Shown here: positions 2,164-12,073 of the stretch, one piece after another
How the letters are laid out: each line of letters opens with the position of its first letter
How positions within the stretch are numbered: position 1 is the stretch's first letter
IMG/VR virus record: IMGVR_UViG_3300005613_004103
Span: 1 to 28,643 of that record
DNA length: 28,643 bases
Source of the DNA: a virus
Strand: one strand, 5' to 3'
The notes under the pieces: generated by a model
Seen by the model: only the letters and a program-made list of their open reading frames with translations
What the model was told of the DNA's origin: nothing
Database searches by the model: none
Translations under genes and position numbers: made by a program

Positions 2164-3282
2164 TCAAAGTTTAGATAAAACTTCCTTGTATATACTTTCA
2201 GCTATGGCTTTCATCATTAAAGGAGGAACCATTCTTCCAACTCTTTCTGTTTGTTGTGAATGTGTACCAGTCAAAATAAAATCATCTGGTAAAGATTGAA
2301 TTCTTTTGAGTTCTGGTATTGTCATTACTCGATCTTCTTTCCAATGAATCAGACCACCACTAGCTGTAAGTGTCGGAGAAGGTTGATACAAAGAAGCTCT
2401 TTTTGTATTAAAACAATGTCCTTTATCATGATAATTAGCACCCGTCAAAACTTTTTTCGGATTTTTAGGCATCTTTTTTACAACTTTTTCATATAGACCA
2501 CTCTTTAACATGTGATCAGTAAGTGACTTAACAATTTCTGGATCATTTTGAACACCATCAATAATGTCACTAATTGTTGTGGATTTATAAGTTGGTTGAG
2601 GAAATACTGTTGAGATTGTAAGTACATTCAACCCAACCTTTTCTGCAATATCTGAACGTACTGCAATGAAAATAAGTCTTTCTCTTCCTTGTCCAACTCC
2701 GTAGTTTGATGCTTTCATGACTCTTGATGTTACAAGATAACCAATATCTTCAAAGGCATTGGTGATCTTAGCATAATAAGTTTTAGCTTCACCAACAGTC
2801 AATCCTTTGACATTTTCACCAACAATAACTTTTGGTTGAATTTCACTAGCAACACGAATGAATTCAAAAAATAAATCTTCAATATTTTCTACTTTTTTAC
2901 CATCAGAATAATTTTTAGTCTTACCCCACCCATCCGAGTGTTTAGCACCTTCACCACGACACATTGATCCTGCAACAGAAAAAGCAGAACATGGAGGTGA
3001 TCCGTCAAATATATCTAACTCACCGACTTCAAGACCTACTTGATTTAAAAAATCCTTTCCTGTTAAAGTTTTAATATCATTAGGAAAAATATACGTTGAA
3101 GGATAATTTTGAGAATAAGTATTTCTTGCCTCTTCTACAAATTCGTTGATACAAAGAATTTTACCACCAGCAAGACGATAACCAGTAGAGGAACCACCTC
3201 CACCAGCAAATGTAGAAATGACAGTGAACTTTTTTTGAGCTTCACCATCATAAACATCTTGTAAATTATATGGAAATTTCAT
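2164..3282 (-). CDS. Cytosine-C5 DNA methyltransferase, candidate carboxymethyltransferase
   Basis: 372 aa with the C5-methyltransferase motifs in order: motif I STFAGGGGSSTGY (23-35), motif IV GSPPCS with catalytic Cys98, motif VI GENVKG (155-160), motif VIII QGRER (198-202), then a target-recognition region, motif IX RASLYQPSPTLTASGG (295-310) and motif X RVGRMVPPLMMKAIA (347-361). It should flip out and modify cytosine in double-stranded DNA. The odd feature is Arg350: motif X normally reads GN(A/S)V, and the Asn is nearly invariant, but here it is GRMV. From memory, changing this Asn to Lys in M.MpeI (N374K) lets that enzyme use carboxy-S-adenosylmethionine. The start overlaps the stop of the AsnB-like gene (ATGA, 3279-3282), and a CmoA-like gene lies just before that. 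No restriction endonuclease is adjacent. The methyltransferase fold is certain; carboxymethyl transfer is inference. Confidence 0.93.
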   Translation of the reverse strand: MKFPYNLQDVYDGEAQKKFTVISTFAGGGGSSTGYRLAGGKILCINEFVEEARNTYSQNYPSTYIFPNDIKTLTGKDFLNQVGLEVGELDIFDGSPPCSAFSVAGSMCRGEGAKHSDGWGKTKNYSDGKKVENIEDLFFEFIRVASEIQPKVIVGENVKGLTVGEAKTYYAKITNAFEDIGYLVTSRVMKASNYGVGQGRERLIFIAVRSDIAEKVGLNVLTISTVFPQPTYKSTTISDIIDGVQNDPEIVKSLTDHMLKSGLYEKVVKKMPKNPKKVLTGANYHDKGHCFNTKRASLYQPSPTLTASGGLIHWKEDRVMTIPELKRIQSLPDDFILTGTHSQQTERVGRMVPPLMMKAIAESIYKEVLSKL

Positions 3283-5282: not shown

Positions 5283-6449
5283 TTAAAACTTAAATCCCTC
5301 AAATGATTTTTTGGGTTTTTCATGATAATTATACTCTTCCTCTTGTCCAGAGTCAAGTATATCATCTTGTGCAGATTGTTCACAATCATATAATCTCATC
5401 TTTGCTCTATCAATACCAATGATGAATCTCTTATAAGTGGTTGGATCATTATAACGATTTTTAAGTTGTTTGACCATAATTTGTCCAAGTTCTTCAAGTT
5501 CATCTGTTTTGATAAGAGCAAACATAAGGTCGGCAGTAGCAGGAAGACCAAAGGATTCAGATGTATCAGTTAATTCAACATCAGATGAACCAAATCCACT
5601 TCTAGTCGTTTGTGTCGCGCTGACAATAGGAACATTTGCTTCAACAGCCAATCCACGAAGTTCTTCAGCAATAGCTTTAATGTAACTATATGAATTAACT
5701 GTACTGTTTCCACGATACCTTGATGATGCACAAATATTAAGATAGTCAATGAAAATAATATCAGGTCTGAAGGATTTCTTAAGAGCAAGTTCATTCAGAA
5801 GTGACTTGAAATGTCCAGAGTGAGCTGAAGCAGTTGGATACTCTTTGATGATTAAAGTACCTTGTGTCTTCTGAGAAAGATTATTAACTTTAGTCTCAAA
5901 TGTAGTTTTTGGTAACTCAATGATATCATGAATATTGACATTTAAAAGATTTGCATCAATACGTTCTGCAATCTTTTCTTCAGCCATCTCTAATGTAATG
6001 TATAGAACATTCTTATTTTGAAGAAGACAAGAAGACGCTACATGACACATAAACAAACTTTTGCCAACACCAGTATTATGAGAAGAAACTTGATTAGTAT
6101 AATACCTATGATTTGGATGATTTACATTAATATCAACAATAGGTATTTGTTTTCCAGTTTTAAACACACTACCAAGTTTATAACCATTCTTCGTTAGGAA
6201 ATGATTTGTCTTATATTTTTCATAAAGATGTGATGCTTTCATCCATCCAAAAGATGTTTCAAATAAATGATCGGCATTACATCTCACAGGTTCTCCACCA
6301 TCAACCTTTAAAATGTATTCATCATACATTCCTTTGTTGATAAAGAAATTAACTGGAACATATCCATCGGGCGAATCAACTTCTACTTCATATCCATTAT
6401 CAAGTAATGTTTTGATTTCAGCAATTGATGTTTCTTTTTCAATCCACAT
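5283..6449 (-). CDS. gp41 (C-half): Replicative helicase gp41, C-terminal half, with split-intein C-fragment
   Basis: 388 aa. Residues 1-125 are an intein C-fragment (block B-like CNADHLF, block F-like NHRYYTNQ, terminal VSSHN). Residues 126-388 are the DnaB-family helicase from TGVGKS onwards. Walker A Lys130, Walker B FIDYLN and a TQTTRSG motif lie in the helicase part. The N-half at 7136-7768 ends its extein with LNIALAG, so splicing would restore AG-TGVGKS exactly, with Thr as the +1 residue. The joined helicase would be about 457 aa, close to T4 gp41. The start lacks a good Shine-Dalgarno. No minus-strand promoter is obvious between it and the HNH gene, so transcription probably reads through from upstream. 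Without splicing neither half has a complete nucleotide-binding loop. Confidence 0.93.
   Translation of the reverse strand: MWIEKETSIAEIKTLLDNGYEVEVDSPDGYVPVNFFINKGMYDEYILKVDGGEPVRCNADHLFETSFGWMKASHLYEKYKTNHFLTKNGYKLGSVFKTGKQIPIVDINVNHPNHRYYTNQVSSHNTGVGKSLFMCHVASSCLLQNKNVLYITLEMAEEKIAERIDANLLNVNIHDIIELPKTTFETKVNNLSQKTQGTLIIKEYPTASAHSGHFKSLLNELALKKSFRPDIIFIDYLNICASSRYRGNSTVNSYSYIKAIAEELRGLAVEANVPIVSATQTTRSGFGSSDVELTDTSESFGLPATADLMFALIKTDELEELGQIMVKQLKNRYNDPTTYKRFIIGIDRAKMRLYDCEQSAQDDILDSGQEEEYNYHEKPKKSFEGFKF
6075..6449 (-). other. Split intein C-fragment, 125 residues
   Basis: This is codons 1-125 of the gp41 C-half, ending His124-Asn125 before Thr126. It carries block B (GEPVRCNADHLF) as well as the C-terminal blocks, which in canonical split inteins lie on separate fragments. 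The fragment is therefore much longer than the usual 35-45 residue C-piece and matches the rare atypical split class, in which the N-piece is about 16-25 residues. Confidence 0.88.
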
Positions 6450-6453
6450 TTTA

Positions 6454-6461
6454 TATAAATA
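6454..6461 (+). promoter_or_regulatory. T4-type late promoter for the HNH endonuclease
   Basis: Exact octamer TATAAATA, the sequence read by gp55-type late sigma factors, 22 bases before the HNH ATG on the plus strand. AGGGA lies about 8 bases before the ATG. The octamer is expected several times by chance in DNA this AT-rich, so placement is the main support. Confidence 0.6.
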
Positions 6462-6483
6462 ATCAGTAACAGGGACAGGGAAA

Positions 6484-7152
6484 ATGTTTAGTCAAATCTA
6501 TTCTAACCTATGCGAGAATAATAAGTCAAGGAAAGACGACTATAAAAAATATTCAGGACTACACGAACATCATATTGTTCCTAAACATATGGGAGGAACA
6601 GATGAAGATTGCAACCTTACATACTTGAATATTAGAGAACACATTATAGCACATTATTTACTTTGGAAAATTTATAAAAATCCAAATGATTTAAGATCTA
6701 TGAAAATGTTAGGAGCAAACTTGTCTCCACAACACAGAAAAATAACAGGAGAGTTTTGTAGGGATAATCAGATTGGTATATTTTCAATTCCAATAGAAGA
6801 AAGAAAAGAATGGATGTCTAAAGGAATAGAAACTCAAAAACAAGAATACTTACATAACAACACTAAAAACTTTTATTATTGGAGCACAGAGGAAGGAAGA
6901 AAAGAAAGAGCATCTCTTGGAGGAAAGAAGAGAGCATCAAAAGAATTTAATTACTGGGCATCAAATCAAGGAAGAAAGGAAAGAGCATCACTTGGAGGAA
7001 AAGCACACAAAGGTAAGAAGGTAATGCACTTACCAGGAACAAAAGGATGGAAAAGAATACTTCCAGAAGATGTTGATACTAAACTAGATGAAGGTTGGAA
7101 ATTTGGAACTGGAGAACCAGCACCAAACTCCAAAATCAAGAAATCTTCCTAA
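6484..7152 (+). CDS. HNH homing endonuclease inside fractured gp41
   Basis: 222 aa, and the only plus-strand gene in the window. The HNH signature is in residues 27-57 (HEHHIVPKHMGG, Asn44, then REHIIAHYLL). Two adjacent copies of YWxxxxGRKERASLGGK follow (about residues 131-173), probably DNA-binding elements. The C-terminus LPGTKGWKRILPEDVDTKLD resembles the DNA-contact tails of other phage HNH enzymes. It lies between the two parts of gp41. Its last 17 bases overlap the end of the gp41 N-half tail to tail, and its start is 34 bases from the divergent start of the C-half. It has its own late promoter octamer and Shine-Dalgarno. By family it should cut intein-less or intact gp41 alleles and spread the fractured locus; activity is inference. 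Confidence 0.9.
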   Translation: MFSQIYSNLCENNKSRKDDYKKYSGLHEHHIVPKHMGGTDEDCNLTYLNIREHIIAHYLLWKIYKNPNDLRSMKMLGANLSPQHRKITGEFCRDNQIGIFSIPIEERKEWMSKGIETQKQEYLHNNTKNFYYWSTEEGRKERASLGGKKRASKEFNYWASNQGRKERASLGGKAHKGKKVMHLPGTKGWKRILPEDVDTKLDEGWKFGTGEPAPNSKIKKSS

Positions 7153-7768
7153 ACCTAATTCTAACTTTAGTTTCTGGATGAACACAACCAGCAAGTGCGA
7201 TATTCAATGTCTTATTCGGAAGACCACCTTTAGTAATCTTATTGAAATAATCTAAGTCAAACTCAATTCTAGATTCTTTCTTATGATAAATCTCATATCG
7301 TGCTTCATAATCTAAAAGATAATCATGACCAACATGATTATCAAAACTTACACCAAGTGCTTCAGAAAGAATTGAGGGAATGGCATCAGGTGTTTTCTTA
7401 CTATCTTGACCATCTGCAATTTGAATCGACTCCATAAGAGCCAAATAAATTGCACGTTCTCGACACCACTTTTCAGTAGTATCAAGTAACCATTCATATT
7501 CAGAAGGTTGGTCATCAAGACAACTAATAAGATGAACTACTTCTTTGAAGTTACTCTCATTGATGTCATTTCTTTTTTCTACTTCAATTGAAAGAATTTC
7601 TTGGGTTGGTACTTCATTATACTGAGTAACAAATTCTAAGATTTCCTCAAAAACTATCTTTTGATTTCTATCTTGAAAATAATCAGATTTGATAAAAGGA
7701 ATAGATTTTCTTAAATATTCTTCATTATGTAATAGATTCTTAAGAACAAGAAATTCAACTTTCTCCAT
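7136..7768 (-). CDS. gp41 (N-half): Replicative helicase gp41, N-terminal half, with 16-residue intein N-fragment
   Basis: 210 aa from ATG 7768 (MEKVEFLVLKNLL); an in-frame TTG-type start 21 bases upstream is less likely. Residues 1-194 are the N-terminal domain and linker of a DnaB-family helicase and end in GGLPNKTLNIALAG, just at the beginning of the P-loop. Residues 195-210 are CVHPETKVRIRFRKIS followed by TGA, an intein N-terminus with catalytic Cys195. The start overlaps the uvsX stop by 14 bases, so translation may be coupled. The 3' end overlaps the HNH gene on the other strand by 17 bases. It must associate with the C-half and trans-splice to give an active helicase. Confidence 0.93.
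   Translation of the reverse strand: MEKVEFLVLKNLLHNEEYLRKSIPFIKSDYFQDRNQKIVFEEILEFVTQYNEVPTQEILSIEVEKRNDINESNFKEVVHLISCLDDQPSEYEWLLDTTEKWCRERAIYLALMESIQIADGQDSKKTPDAIPSILSEALGVSFDNHVGHDYLLDYEARYEIYHKKESRIEFDLDYFNKITKGGLPNKTLNIALAGCVHPETKVRIRFRKIS
7139..7186 (-). other. Split intein N-fragment, 16 residues
   Basis: Sixteen codons from Cys (7184-7186) to the stop. Cys1 with HPETKV fits intein block A. Block B is missing and is instead encoded on the other half. This short length matches the atypical split inteins reported from T4-like helicase and UvsX genes in Antarctic lake metagenomes (from memory, 16-residue N-parts). Confidence 0.88.
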
Positions 7769-8765
7769 AACTAAATTCTTTGCGTGCAATTTGGTCTAAT
7801 TGATCCATGACTTCTGGGGTGAAGTATGTTTCTGGTTCTTTCAAAATCTGTTTAGCGTAAATCTTTTTACCATCTATCTCATATCTACCAGCAACGTTTT
7901 TCCAAAGTCCCCCAATCTCACCGAGTTCAAGAAGACCATAATATCGATCGAGACCACGCTCATCATAATACAAACGAATTTGAACTTCTTTATTTTCTTT
8001 ACTTAATCTTGATTTTTGAGTTTTAGCACGAATAATATTTCCAACGACTTCTGTTCCATCCTTTTCTTTAGATTTGGAAAGATAAATTATTGTTGAAGAT
8101 GCATATTGCAATCCACTCCCACCACTCATTTGCTTTCCACCATAAAGACTCATGCTCTCGTAAGTATGATTAGTCACAATCATTGGAATTTTTGCTTGAC
8201 CCAACTTCAATGTTAACATTCTAAAGGCACCTTTAATAAGTTGTGCTTTTGTCATATCTCTAGAATCTTTTTCGGCAAGAGCATCACCAATTTCTTTATT
8301 TGTAGATAACATACCTAAGGAGTCTAACACAAGCATACAAGGTTTGCGTTCATCTACAGGTTTCTTTAGATAAATATCTACTGCTTTCAGTGCTTTACTA
8401 CGAAACTCTTCGATCGTTACGACATTGACAACAACAGTTCTTGATGTATCAACTCCACGACTTTCTAGAAGAGATTTAGTGATGGCAGCCTCTGTATCAA
8501 AGTAAAGACAGTAACCATCTGGGTTACTATCAAGAAAATTTTGTACAACAGCGAGAGAGAAGAAAGTTTTACCAGTAGAAGATTCACCAGCAATGGCAGT
8601 AATCTTATTCCCAGATACACCGCCAAATATACTACCCGAAACCAATGCATTAAAAATGTACGAACCTGTGCCAACATAAGTTTCAGTCTCATCTATTTTA
8701 GAAGCAAGTTGAGTATACTCACCGCCAATTTCTTTTACAATGTCCTGTAAGAAGTCCATAGTCAT
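7755..8765 (-). CDS. uvsX: UvsX, RecA-like recombinase
   Basis: 336 aa RecA/UvsX family protein. Walker A is GESSTGKT (about residues 60-67), Walker B is MLVLDSLGML, and GGSGLQYASS fits the DNA-binding loop region. UvsX forms filaments on ssDNA and drives strand invasion in recombination-dependent replication with UvsY (25902-26336) as mediator. The ATG follows the gp43 C-half stop directly (TAAATG), and its own stop overlaps the gp41 start. No intein is present here, although UvsX is a known intein host. Confidence 0.97.
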   Translation of the reverse strand: MTMDFLQDIVKEIGGEYTQLASKIDETETYVGTGSYIFNALVSGSIFGGVSGNKITAIAGESSTGKTFFSLAVVQNFLDSNPDGYCLYFDTEAAITKSLLESRGVDTSRTVVVNVVTIEEFRSKALKAVDIYLKKPVDERKPCMLVLDSLGMLSTNKEIGDALAEKDSRDMTKAQLIKGAFRMLTLKLGQAKIPMIVTNHTYESMSLYGGKQMSGGSGLQYASSTIIYLSKSKEKDGTEVVGNIIRAKTQKSRLSKENKEVQIRLYYDERGLDRYYGLLELGEIGGLWKNVAGRYEIDGKKIYAKQILKEPETYFTPEVMDQLDQIARKEFSYGES

Positions 8766-9869
8766 TTAAGCAAAAAATAATTCTAAGTTTACGGTCTTTT
8801 CAACATTCCATCCAATAGCATCGAGGATTACTTTGAGTGGTTCTAAAAATGCCTTCTCAAATTGTAAGTCATAGTCAATGTACTTGTCAATACCTATCTC
8901 CTTAGGAAAGTCAGATATAAATGAAATTACATTTTCCCTGATTGGATTTGCCTTTTTGAGATAGATAAATTTAATCTTCTCACCATTATTAATAATGGAA
9001 TATTTATTAGTCAGTCCTTTCTCTCTGATATAGTGATTATAAAGAAGAGCTCCTCTTACATGTATAGGTGAACCCTTTGAATAAATGGTAGATGAATTCT
9101 TATGTTTAGTAACATCGGAAACAGTTCTAGGAAATGAAACTTCCTCAGGAGTCATTTTCTTAAATTGCGTTCTCGCATTATCAATGAACTTAATCACATC
9201 ATCTTCTGTTCCAGTCATCATCAACTTTAGAGCATCCTTAATCATCTTTCGACATGGTGCTGGAGTTGAGGACTTGACTGCCTCAATACCCATAATCTTC
9301 AACTTCGGTTCTTCGTAGCGAACACCTTCACTATCCCATACATTAAGAATATAACGCTTTTTCGCAGTCCAAATACCACGATCAGCAATATTCTCACGTT
9401 TCATACTCATTTTTTGAGAATACGCATTAACGAATGAAGCCAACTCTTGATACGAATTCTCGATAAATGGTTCAAATTTTTCCTTACAGATCTTATCAAG
9501 TAAATTAACAATTGCTGTTTTATGGTTAGACTTACTACTAAAAAATTTATCAACAAGAGGTCCAAGATTAAGATAAATTGAGTCAGTGTCAGATGCAATG
9601 ACATAATCTACGTCCTTCGTAGATAATATTTTATTTAGATATTGATTCATTTTATCCTCAATCCAACGAATTGAGAGTTGACCAGAAAGAGTAATTGCTT
9701 CTGCATTTGCTAGTTTGTAATACCTGAAGTATTGATTACCAATAGCACCGTACAAACTATTAAGTTGTACCTTTCTAGCCATTTGATTATTTGTGTATTT
9801 AGATATTTCTTTTTTAGTATTTTTCCGAAGTGAAATAAGTTCTCTATCGGACATTTCACCCAAATTCAT
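8766..9869 (-). CDS. gp43 (C-part): DNA polymerase gp43, C-terminal part (split gene)
   Basis: 367 aa from ATG 9869. This start has AGGAG at 9877-9881 with a 7-base spacer; ATG 9854, immediately after the endonuclease stop, is a weaker alternative. It carries family B motif B (NQMARKVQLNSLYGAIGN, with NSLYG at 37-41), motif C (ASDTDSIY, DTD at 94-96), KKRY in the thumb-proximal region, and a C-terminal LELFFA that should bind the gp45 clamp. The first five residues (MNLGE) come from the inserted DNA; the native frame resumes at MSDREL. It must pair with the N-part at 10604-12073, which carries the exonuclease and motif A, to make an active enzyme. No intein sequence is present, so assembly should be non-covalent, as described for split gp43 of Aeromonas phages. 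Confidence 0.92.
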   Translation of the reverse strand: MNLGEMSDRELISLRKNTKKEISKYTNNQMARKVQLNSLYGAIGNQYFRYYKLANAEAITLSGQLSIRWIEDKMNQYLNKILSTKDVDYVIASDTDSIYLNLGPLVDKFFSSKSNHKTAIVNLLDKICKEKFEPFIENSYQELASFVNAYSQKMSMKRENIADRGIWTAKKRYILNVWDSEGVRYEEPKLKIMGIEAVKSSTPAPCRKMIKDALKLMMTGTEDDVIKFIDNARTQFKKMTPEEVSFPRTVSDVTKHKNSSTIYSKGSPIHVRGALLYNHYIREKGLTNKYSIINNGEKIKFIYLKKANPIRENVISFISDFPKEIGIDKYIDYDLQFEKAFLEPLKVILDAIGWNVEKTVNLELFFA

Positions 9870-10575
9870 TAAAAATCTCCTCAATAATTTTTTTATTCTT
9901 CTTAATTTGCTTATCAGTAATTCTAACTATATTATAACCAAGTTCCACAGATCTTTCTATTTGCTCCAAATCTTTCACTTTTTGATGTGGTAAATTGTGG
10001 TAATATTCACCATCCATCTCAACCAATAAATTATATTTCTGAATATAAAAATCATATTGATGTCCGTATTTTTCTATTGAATATTGCCTCTTATATGAAA
10101 TGTCAAGTCTTTCACATTCTTCAATAAAAAAATTTTCAATAGATGTTGATCGATATTTCCAATTTTCATTTCTAAAAACACCAACAACTCCAGTGTTAGC
10201 TAACATTCTAAAATGTTCTCTTCTACTATCATTCCAATACCTACTTTGCCCAACAGATTTCACATCAATACCATATTGTTTCATTTTTTTACAAACTAGT
10301 GCTTTAGAAACTTCATAAAATTCAGCAATTTCTCTTTGACCCAATCCATCCTCAAAAAAGAGTTTTTCAAGACTTTCTTTTGTCGGATTAAATTTGATAG
10401 AATTTTTTTGTGCTTGTTTTGCTCTTACAGATTTTCCATTATTTTTCCTAGAAATTAAATCTGGAAAATTTTCTCTAATGTAAAGATACAGTTTTCGATA
10501 AGAAACATTATTAACTTCGCAATAATGTAGAAGAGATGTATTTGATTTTATAAAATCATTCACATATTTTTCCAT
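9856..10575 (-). CDS. Vsr-like (EDxHD-type) homing endonuclease inside split gp43
   Basis: 239 aa. A helix-turn-helix segment, LGQREIAEFYEVSKALVCKK, lies at residues 78-97. The C-terminal nuclease domain has IENFFIEECERLDISYKRQY (about 146-165), YDFYI with Asp175, LLVEMDGEYYH with Glu186, Asp188 and His193, and Asp202. This is the pattern of very-short-patch-repair-like homing endonucleases. The gene sits between the two polymerase parts, 28 bases after the N-part stop. Its last codons contain the Shine-Dalgarno and start of the C-part. It probably cuts intact polymerase genes and is copied in by repair. A Vsr-like nuclease between gene halves fits the fractured-gene pattern described in marine metagenomes. 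The start lacks a strong Shine-Dalgarno. Confidence 0.88.
   Translation of the reverse strand: MEKYVNDFIKSNTSLLHYCEVNNVSYRKLYLYIRENFPDLISRKNNGKSVRAKQAQKNSIKFNPTKESLEKLFFEDGLGQREIAEFYEVSKALVCKKMKQYGIDVKSVGQSRYWNDSRREHFRMLANTGVVGVFRNENWKYRSTSIENFFIEECERLDISYKRQYSIEKYGHQYDFYIQKYNLLVEMDGEYYHNLPHQKVKDLEQIERSVELGYNIVRITDKQIKKNKKIIEEIFNEFG
9877..9881 (-). promoter_or_regulatory. Ribosome binding site deciding the gp43 C-part start
   Basis: AGGAG on the minus strand, seven bases before ATG 9869. It lies inside the end of the endonuclease gene, so the invading element supplies the translation signal for the second half of the polymerase. Confidence 0.75.
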
Positions 10576-10600
10576 GAAGAGTTAAATTAAATCTTACAAC

Positions 10601-10608
10601 TATTTATA
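10601..10608 (-). promoter_or_regulatory. T4-type late promoter for the Vsr-like endonuclease
   Basis: Exact TATAAATA on the minus strand, overlapping the stop codon of the polymerase N-part and ending 25 bases before the endonuclease ATG. It would place the endonuclease, and the polymerase C-part behind it, under late transcription as well as read-through. Confidence 0.55.
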
Positions 10609-12073
10609 AAATACCTCTACACCTCATTTCATTTTCAATTTCTTCTAATTTGATCTTTTCCTTTAACATTTCTTTTTTAAAATACTGTCTATCATTAAAA
10701 ATTTTTTCTACAAGTTCGGGGAATATTCCTTTTTTTGTCGTATCATACATACACCCATTAGCAGATACACATTTTCCCTCAACATTCTCAATAACGACTT
10801 CTTTATTCAATAATTTATCAACACTTATACCAGGATATTTTTCATCAAGAAGAGTTTCAGGTGACACATTATATTGCATAATAAGAGATGGATATAGGGA
10901 TGTTAAATCCAAAGATAAAATCCAATCATAGACTCCTGGTTTTGGTTCTTTAACATATGCTCCAGCATACTTTTCACTTTTATCACTTTTATCTTTTGGA
11001 GGAATTACAATATTTCTTTTTTTCAAATAATTGTAGATAATAGTATCCCACATTCTAACTTGAAACATTACATCCACAAAGTTAACTTTTGCAGTATAAG
11101 CCATTGTTAGAGCAAGTTCAATTAATTTCATCTTGTCTTCCAAACGGTCAACAAGTTCTACGTCAATAATATTGTAATCTACAAATTTTTTCCAATCCTT
11201 AGTATAGAATTCCTTAAATGTATCAAACTCTGAGTGATCAAGTTTTTTCTGACCTAATTCTACTTGAGCAATATAATCTAATCGATAGGATTCTTGATTT
11301 GTATAAGTAAATTTTTTATAAAGTTCAAGATAATCAAGTGTTGTCGTTCCAGCAATGTCATAAACATTGAACTTTCTTCCGTTAATAAAAATCTCCTCAT
11401 TAGTCACAAGCCCCCATGGAGACAGTAACTTGAGTGTTTTAAGACCCATGATTCTGTCTATTCTTCCACAAAGATATGGAATATCATAAAGACGACAATT
11501 CCAACCAGTTACAACTTCTGGAGGATTCTTGTTCCAATGATAGATGAAATTGTTAAGCATATCAATTTCATCTTCAAAATAATGATAGGTTACATTATCT
11601 TGAGATGGTGTATATGGCTTTCTTCCCCAAGTTGTAATTTTCTTTGTAGCATAATCCTGTATGGAGATAGTTAACATCTCTTCAGAACATGAATCAGGAT
11701 CAGGGAATCCTTCCTCAGATTTAACCTCAATATCAATTGTTACAAGATTGATTTTTTTAATATCAAACTTTACTTCATCTTCAGGATATTTTTCTGAGAT
11801 ATATTGAAAGACATATCGATCATTTCCATATATCTTAAATCCTTCCACATCTTCATATTTTTTATAAAATTCTCTACAGTCCTTTACTGTTCCTGGTTGA
11901 ATAGGTTCTACATTTTCACCTTCAAGAGTTTTGTACTTTGTTTCTTTATTTGATTTTACAAAAAGAGTGGGAGAAAATTCTTCCTTAAAAATAACACTCT
12001 TTCCATTTTCATAACCACGAACCAGAAAGTTGTTTCCAACCATCTGAACATTTGTATAGAACCTCAAACTCAT
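10604..12073 (-). CDS. gp43 (N-part): DNA polymerase gp43, N-terminal part (split gene)
   Basis: 489 aa of family B polymerase. Exonuclease motifs are visible: LVTIDIEV (Exo I), VTGWNCRLYDIPYL (Exo II) and YNIIDVELVD (Exo III). Motif A, DLTSLYPSLI, starts at Asp389. The native sequence runs to IENEM at residue 483, then six foreign residues (RCRGIL) and a stop. The rest of the fingers and motifs B and C are on the C-part at 8766-9869. Joining at the shared GAAATG would give about 844 aa, a normal length for a cyanophage gp43. The ATG overlaps the stop of the preceding Sm-like gene (ATGA), with GAAGGA just upstream. The product should keep the proofreading domain but cannot polymerise alone. 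Confidence 0.94.
   Translation of the reverse strand: MSLRFYTNVQMVGNNFLVRGYENGKSVIFKEEFSPTLFVKSNKETKYKTLEGENVEPIQPGTVKDCREFYKKYEDVEGFKIYGNDRYVFQYISEKYPEDEVKFDIKKINLVTIDIEVKSEEGFPDPDSCSEEMLTISIQDYATKKITTWGRKPYTPSQDNVTYHYFEDEIDMLNNFIYHWNKNPPEVVTGWNCRLYDIPYLCGRIDRIMGLKTLKLLSPWGLVTNEEIFINGRKFNVYDIAGTTTLDYLELYKKFTYTNQESYRLDYIAQVELGQKKLDHSEFDTFKEFYTKDWKKFVDYNIIDVELVDRLEDKMKLIELALTMAYTAKVNFVDVMFQVRMWDTIIYNYLKKRNIVIPPKDKSDKSEKYAGAYVKEPKPGVYDWILSLDLTSLYPSLIMQYNVSPETLLDEKYPGISVDKLLNKEVVIENVEGKCVSANGCMYDTTKKGIFPELVEKIFNDRQYFKKEMLKEKIKLEEIENEMRCRGIL

Follow-up and report, generated by a model that had tools for sequence, protein, structure and literature searches.

The window analysed here, the whole 28,643-nucleotide stretch of IMG/VR record IMGVR_UViG_3300005613_004103, encodes its DNA polymerase, gp43, as two separate genes with a putative homing endonuclease gene between them (Table 1). 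The sequence-only reading had described a polymerase split in this manner, and the arrangement is real; the open reading frames lie where it had placed them.

Table 1. Features of the split gp43 locus, in window coordinates
Feature	Position	Strand	Remarks
gp43 N-part, 489 aa	10604..12073	(-)	3'-5' exonuclease, palm start, motif A, first fingers helix
gp43 C-part, 367 aa	8766..9869	(-)	second fingers helix, motifs B and C, thumb
Putative homing endonuclease, EDxHD/Vsr-type, 239 aa, between the gp43 halves	9856..10575	(-)	Pfam DUF559
Predicted helical DNA-binding modules of endonuclease	residues 1-100		
Endonuclease C-terminal nuclease domain	residues ~143-239, window 9856-10149	(-)	
Shine-Dalgarno GAGGAG of C-part	9877..9882	(-)	read from sequence; within endonuclease ORF
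TATAAATA, T4-type late-promoter motif overlapping N-part stop codon	10601..10608	(-)	exact match
Possible RNA hairpin covering endonuclease start codon, late-promoter sequence inside	10574..10627	(-)	fold z-scores, weak
TGAAATG copy 1	9852..9858	(-)	judged chance match
TGAAATG copy 2	10625..10631	(-)	judged chance match
Left border of acquired module, just upstream of motif A	10923..10931	(-)	L005-like before, L084-like after
Right border of acquired module, end of motif B	9738..9750	(-)	L002-like before, L005-like after

Taken together, the two halves make up a family B polymerase of the T4 type with every motif present. On the Pfam DNA_pol_B profile the N-part covers positions 19-143 and the C-part 142-237, with no stretch of the profile lost between them. 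The N-part carries the exonuclease (Pfam DNA_pol_B_exo1) and motif A (DLTSLYPS, residue 389, 10886-10909), and the C-part carries motif B (NSLYG, residue 37, 9747-9761) and motif C (DTDS, residue 94), a division of motifs that the earlier reading had given correctly. The N-part terminates in ...IENEMRCRGIL* and the C-part begins MNLGEMSDREL; the Shine-Dalgarno sequence of the latter is also kept in contig L002 and, as AGGAG, in L164. PHROG 2062 corresponds approximately to the N-part (3-501/502) and PHROG 1918 to the C-part (13-380/382), and both families already contain such separate gp43 halves. The nearest cultured relatives of the N-part are T4-like phages of Synechococcus and Prochlorococcus (80% identity to RB11-B and S-B43), in keeping with the virus having been called a probable cyanophage; the gp43 of RB11-B is a single uninterrupted CDS. 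With dN/dS of 0.12-0.26 across the N-part, the endonuclease, and the C-part, all three are under purifying selection. Moreover, the same arrangement of split and endonuclease recurs on the independent contigs L002 and L164, with a remnant in L003 and L004, and is therefore no accident of assembly.

The N-part aligns with gp43 of the T4/RB69 type up to about residue 497, and the C-part from about residues 531-547. We also modelled gp43 of L008, a cyanophage gene without interruption. The model is poor overall (pLDDT 49.8), and its fingers hairpin alone was used, where blocks between residues 461 and 500 reach a pLDDT of 76-83; here two helices form a hairpin that turns at residues 483-487 (NREDP). 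Split N-parts terminate at the place matching the turn (...EMKKRGL*, ...EMRCRGIL*), and 43A of Aeromonas phage 25 terminates at the homologous position (...KKILASRGIKTDH, against ...EIENEMRCRGIL in the window). The break in gp43 coincides with the hairpin turn that joins both long fingers helices; alignments and modelled hairpin bear out the earlier placement in the fingers, and the parallel drawn with the split gp43 of Aeromonas T4-like phages extends to the site itself.

The type member of the EDxHD homing endonucleases is I-Bth0305I, and it is this enzyme that the window endonuclease most resembles. The protein matches Pfam DUF559 (2.5e-7), and its sole match among PDB sequences is 3r3p (I-Bth0305I; E 0.043). 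A low-confidence AlphaFold model (mean pLDDT 58.8) predicts N-terminal helical modules and a C-terminal alpha-beta-beta-beta-alpha-beta-alpha domain; its top Foldseek matches are 3r3p_B and 3r3p_A (E 5e-4 and 7e-4, probability 1.00), with Vsr lower. By sequence, and by fold so far as such a model can be read, the nuclease domain is thus homologous to that of I-Bth0305I, which is intron-borne, whereas the window gene is free-standing within a split polymerase gene. Residues D175, E186, D188, H193, and D202, candidates for the acidic and His catalytic residues, are identical in all four homologues, although these sequences are too few and too close to single out an active site. We regard the protein as a putative EDxHD/Vsr-like homing enzyme; the earlier label of Vsr-like fits the class, with Vsr itself the weaker match.

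We found only three full-length members of this EDxHD subfamily, namely those of the window, L002, and L164 (the last two 82% and 79% identical to the first); a profile search yielded one further full-length relative only, and a search of phage records gave no match. The dN/dS of the endonuclease is 0.13-0.16. Its dS is 0.60 between the window and L002, versus 1.14-1.58 for the gp43 halves, and 0.10 between L002 and L164, versus 0.9-1.0, as would be expected if the gene had moved between lineages more recently than their backbones diverged.

The endonuclease may also bring its own expression signals. The T4-type late-promoter motif TATAAATA lies right after the N-part stop in 10 of 10 endonuclease inserts tested at this site, which belong to three unrelated families, and its chance of occurring is about 0.6% per 60 nt. 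The same motif is present ahead of the HNH gene in gp41 of the window (6454-6461), and after the N-part at a second split site (L112, L114, and L128). With tight flanks, the possible hairpin over the endonuclease start has a z-score of -1.9 in the window (9/200 shuffles) and, in the same fold, -3.8 in L002 (0/200); with longer flanks the window value is about 0 and not significant. Start-covering hairpins occur in most endonuclease inserts: a strong one in the first HNH family (z -7.0 and -4.4) holds the late-promoter sequence in its loop, and elsewhere the values are -3.3 (L079) and 0.1 (L021). No clear Shine-Dalgarno sequence was found for the endonuclease. In I-TevI, segB, and mobE, a late promoter is combined with a hairpin that hides the start on early transcripts and leaves it open on late ones (PMC2988022). 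By analogy, the start of the window endonuclease, with its motif and weak hairpin, could be hidden early and open late, although those systems involve a different host gene and a different endonuclease family.

The limits of the added DNA differ from those first proposed. An insertion at 9852-10624 had been delimited by a 7-base direct repeat, TGAAATG, both copies of which are indeed present at the positions given. However, TGAAATG is no more frequent in the window than chance predicts (13 copies, 13.7 expected), some shared 7-mer turns up in 8-30% of random placements at the same spacing of 773 bases, and the 3'-side copy is absent from both full-length siblings, L002 and L164. Further, the RCRGIL that separates the repeat from the stop codon is a native end of split N-parts, seen as KHRGIL* in L113 and KRRGIL* in L131, both split genes without an insert; the stop codon, rather than a point 18 bases before it, therefore marks the approximate start of the added DNA, which spans about 10603 to 9870. 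We reject TGAAATG as the junction.

Contigs retrieved with both gp43 halves as queries show a range of alleles at this site. Some have uninterrupted fingers, in three tip lengths. Others are split but free of any insert (22 loci on about 20 contigs), many with a TAATG stop/start overlap and a C-part beginning MGYLIGGAGE.... Still others are split and carry small ORFs (L034, L094, L119, and Synechococcus phage ACG-2014f), an HNH endonuclease akin to T-even homing endonucleases (L029, L058, L069, L084), a second, HNH-like and CapR-related endonuclease (L021, L023, L024, L079, L082), or the EDxHD endonuclease, complete in the window, L002, and L164 and reduced to its last 91 residues in L003 and L004. 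Three endonuclease families thus occupy the gp43 split site. About 45 ACG-2014f genome records have the split C-part, and in the two examined fully the N-part, two small ORFs, and the C-part are separate genes; as these isolates have no endonuclease, propagated phages stably maintain the split without one.

These alleles bear on the order of events. The CapR-related gene is inserted exactly inside the TAATG overlap, as seen on comparing L021 with the near-identical L006, and L079 with L085; by sequence, the split preceded the insert in this family. The homology of the RGIL* end suggests that the split likely came first for the EDxHD insert as well, and the endonuclease was probably not the creator of the split. 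The earlier statement that gp43 was split by the endonuclease is doubtful, because endonuclease-free splits are common, other families occupy the same site, and the allele was acquired as a module running from motif A to motif B and not by clean insertion into the resident sequence.

The evidence for that acquisition comes from a sister contig, L005, with 93-98% DNA identity to the window over most flanking segments and 89% over one. Its fingers region is uninterrupted, and it has neither the gp43 insert nor the gp41 insert; a 118-base frameshifting gap elsewhere in its gp43 (window 8904-9021) is perhaps an assembly fault, and the gene therefore counts as uninterrupted in the fingers only. Along the window gp43, similarity runs from L005-like to L084-like (motif A to the insert), to L002-like after the insert, and back to L005-like. 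Informative sites divide 318:17 versus 5:94 at the left border (p 1.7e-70) and 14:0 versus 13:194 at the right (p 4e-15). Between L002 and L164, identity is 68% before N-part residue 387 and 94% after it (the window border is at 381-384), and 98% up to about C-part residue 43 and then 76%, the same border as in the window. L003 has no clear breakpoints. In a backbone tree from which the module was left out, the window falls among L007-like phages (support 98), and in a tree of the module it falls among split alleles only (L084, L003, L058, and L002); the backbone tree needs at least eight changes between split and intact on well supported branches. From the alleles compared, a phage whose sister has uninterrupted fingers evidently acquired the segment comprising motif A, the split fingers, and motif B. 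The fingers-tip DNA of the window is only about 30-60% identical to that of L005, and the cleavage site of the endonuclease may therefore lie outside the tip.

Several other explanations need to be considered. An assembly artefact might be suspected because the metagenomic contig comes without reads and the module borders coincide with conserved motifs, at which chimeras may arise. But the stretches of identical bases at the borders, about 7 between L005 and L084 on the left and about 11 between L005 and L002 on the right, are too short for an assembler to switch, making a chimera unlikely, and independent contigs repeat the borders. A dead polymerase gene agrees poorly with dN/dS values well below 1 and with the existence of isolates whose gp43 is split, and we give almost no credence to artefact or dead gene. 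Also extremely improbable is a scheme in which an undetected intron, trans-splicing, or ribosomal bypassing would yield one continuous chain. Ribosomes can skip a gap inserted in a phage gene, as in T4 gene 60, but here the stop codon is conserved, the C-part has its own ribosome-binding site and start, and endonuclease-free alleles have stop/start overlaps. Moreover, an Rfam search found no intron match in the window, L002, L084, or L021, the ends of both gp43 halves are free of intein sequence such as a split intein would leave, and the insert has fewer than 50 non-coding bases and no group I ribozyme core, all in agreement with the original view that there is no intein and no room for a group I intron. 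The gp41 gene of the window does carry intein sequence.

The two remaining alternatives concern how the window came by its split. Insertion of the endonuclease into an intact gp43 at TGAAATG, making the split in the window lineage and duplicating 7 bases, would account for the in-frame IENEM-SDREL obtained by joining at the repeat and for L005-like sisters with uninterrupted fingers. In addition to the evidence against the repeat, however, the flanks of the insert are not L005-like, which points to an imported allele, and split alleles without an endonuclease exist; this reading is already largely refuted and seems very improbable. A stronger competitor is ordinary homologous recombination between co-infecting phages, which could spread the split module with the endonuclease as a passenger or inactive. 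The location of the borders in conserved motifs A and B would be expected in this case, the endonuclease-free split alleles are scattered over the backbone tree as well, and L003 and L004 retain just the end of the gene. Nevertheless, the low dN/dS of the endonuclease, its conserved nuclease-domain residues, and the retention of its own promoter motif argue against a mere passenger, and we consider this unlikely.

Thus, we favor, with a probability of about 78%, a permanent split of gp43 at the fingers turn, in which the predicted homing endonuclease rides a mobile split-fingers module and the halves presumably assemble. Pairing of the two chains via both fingers helices would yield a single functional polymerase. 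Translation of the endonuclease, from its own promoter, would be confined to the late phase; in mixed infections the enzyme would cut gp43 alleles lacking its gene, and repair would copy the module in, with the copied tract ending in motifs A and B, conserved stretches over which the two alleles still match. The split would have come first, as the endonuclease-free alleles and overlapping stop/start codons suggest, and would have offered a harmless seat for endonucleases.

Elements of this scheme have precedents. Dassa et al. 2009 reportedly described fractured genes with stand-alone Vsr-like (EDxHD) inserts in marine-phage-like DNA; in these, an EDxHD gene reportedly breaks a gene of DNA synthesis and brings control elements along, as in the window, but gp43 here lacks a split intein. 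The closest parallel is 43A/43B of Aeromonas phages 25 and 44RR (PMC2988022; NC_008208), a T4-type gp43 split at the homologous fingers-turn residue. A free-standing homing endonuclease (seg43(25)) lies between the halves in phage 25, as in the window gap, and none in another form; the phage 25 enzyme is seg-type rather than EDxHD, a group I intron is present in its 43B, whereas none was found in the window, and the phage family and hosts differ. The phage 25 halves can be purified together and have polymerase activity (PMC2988022). Likewise, mobE interrupts the essential gene nrdA of phage Aeh1, and the two parts of its product assemble (PMC2988022); by analogy those of the window gp43 could do the same.

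The alleles also show that the fingers turn of a family B polymerase tolerates a break, which is useful for engineering split polymerases. In cyanophages the gp43 fingers, from motif A to motif B, may behave as a mobile module, split or intact, in which endonuclease-free splits persist since the break removes the homing target and so confers immunity to homing endonucleases, although this is a tentative and rather doubtful suggestion. For Aeromonas phage 25, reviewers could not decide if the endonuclease had caused the break or had entered a gene that was already in two parts (PMC2988022), and our literature search found no description of split gp43 in cyanophages. What is new here are the intermediate alleles, the evidence for split first, the near before/after pair provided by L005, and the module from motif A to motif B, whose borders nearly coincide in two comparisons. 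At the homologous site, cyanophages have uninterrupted genes, splits without inserts, and splits that hold small ORFs, one of three endonuclease families, or an endonuclease in decay; these intermediates, with the near before/after pair, favor a split that came first and make the question testable.

The Walker A loop of a gp41-like helicase in the window is interrupted by an atypically split intein (5283-7789). The gp41 N-part ends in ALAG/CVHPETKVRIRFRKIS and a stop, leaving an intein N-fragment of only about 16 residues, and a long intein C-fragment opens the gp41 C-part and ends VSSHN/TGVGKS. Comparison with the sister contig L005 shows that the whole gp41 insert (window 6075-7187) is absent there. 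The gp43 (DNA polymerase) gene of L005 is uninterrupted except for a frameshifting 118-base gap near L005 position 4579, which is either a real deletion or an assembly fault.

Features of the window in and near the replication genes
Feature	Position	Strand	Context
C5 cytosine DNA methylase gene	2164-3282		within replication gene region
TATAAATA (T4-type late-promoter motif)	6454-6461		with HNH gene in gp41 insert
HNH gene (PHROG homing endonuclease)	6484-7152	opposite	between gp41 parts

Among related contigs split at the fingers, three (L021, L079 and L082) have lost the ATG of the gp43 C-part after insertion of a CapR-related endonuclease. Their C-parts open with ATT instead, and GGAGG lies about 7 bases 5' of that codon. 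In propagated isolates of Synechococcus phage ACG-2014f (L152), two small conserved ORFs with no assigned function lie between the split gp43 halves, and in some ACG-2014f records the true C-part start is unannotated.

Cyanophage gp43 is also split at a second site, between motif A and the fingers, in L112 (about 1467-2142), L114 and L128, where a different endonuclease-like ORF is present and TATAAATA lies 3' of the N-part stop. Both the N-part and the C-part have acquired helical extensions (ELNRRISELESML; MSPQEIKEELEALKKVRELSS), which could serve in docking of the two halves.
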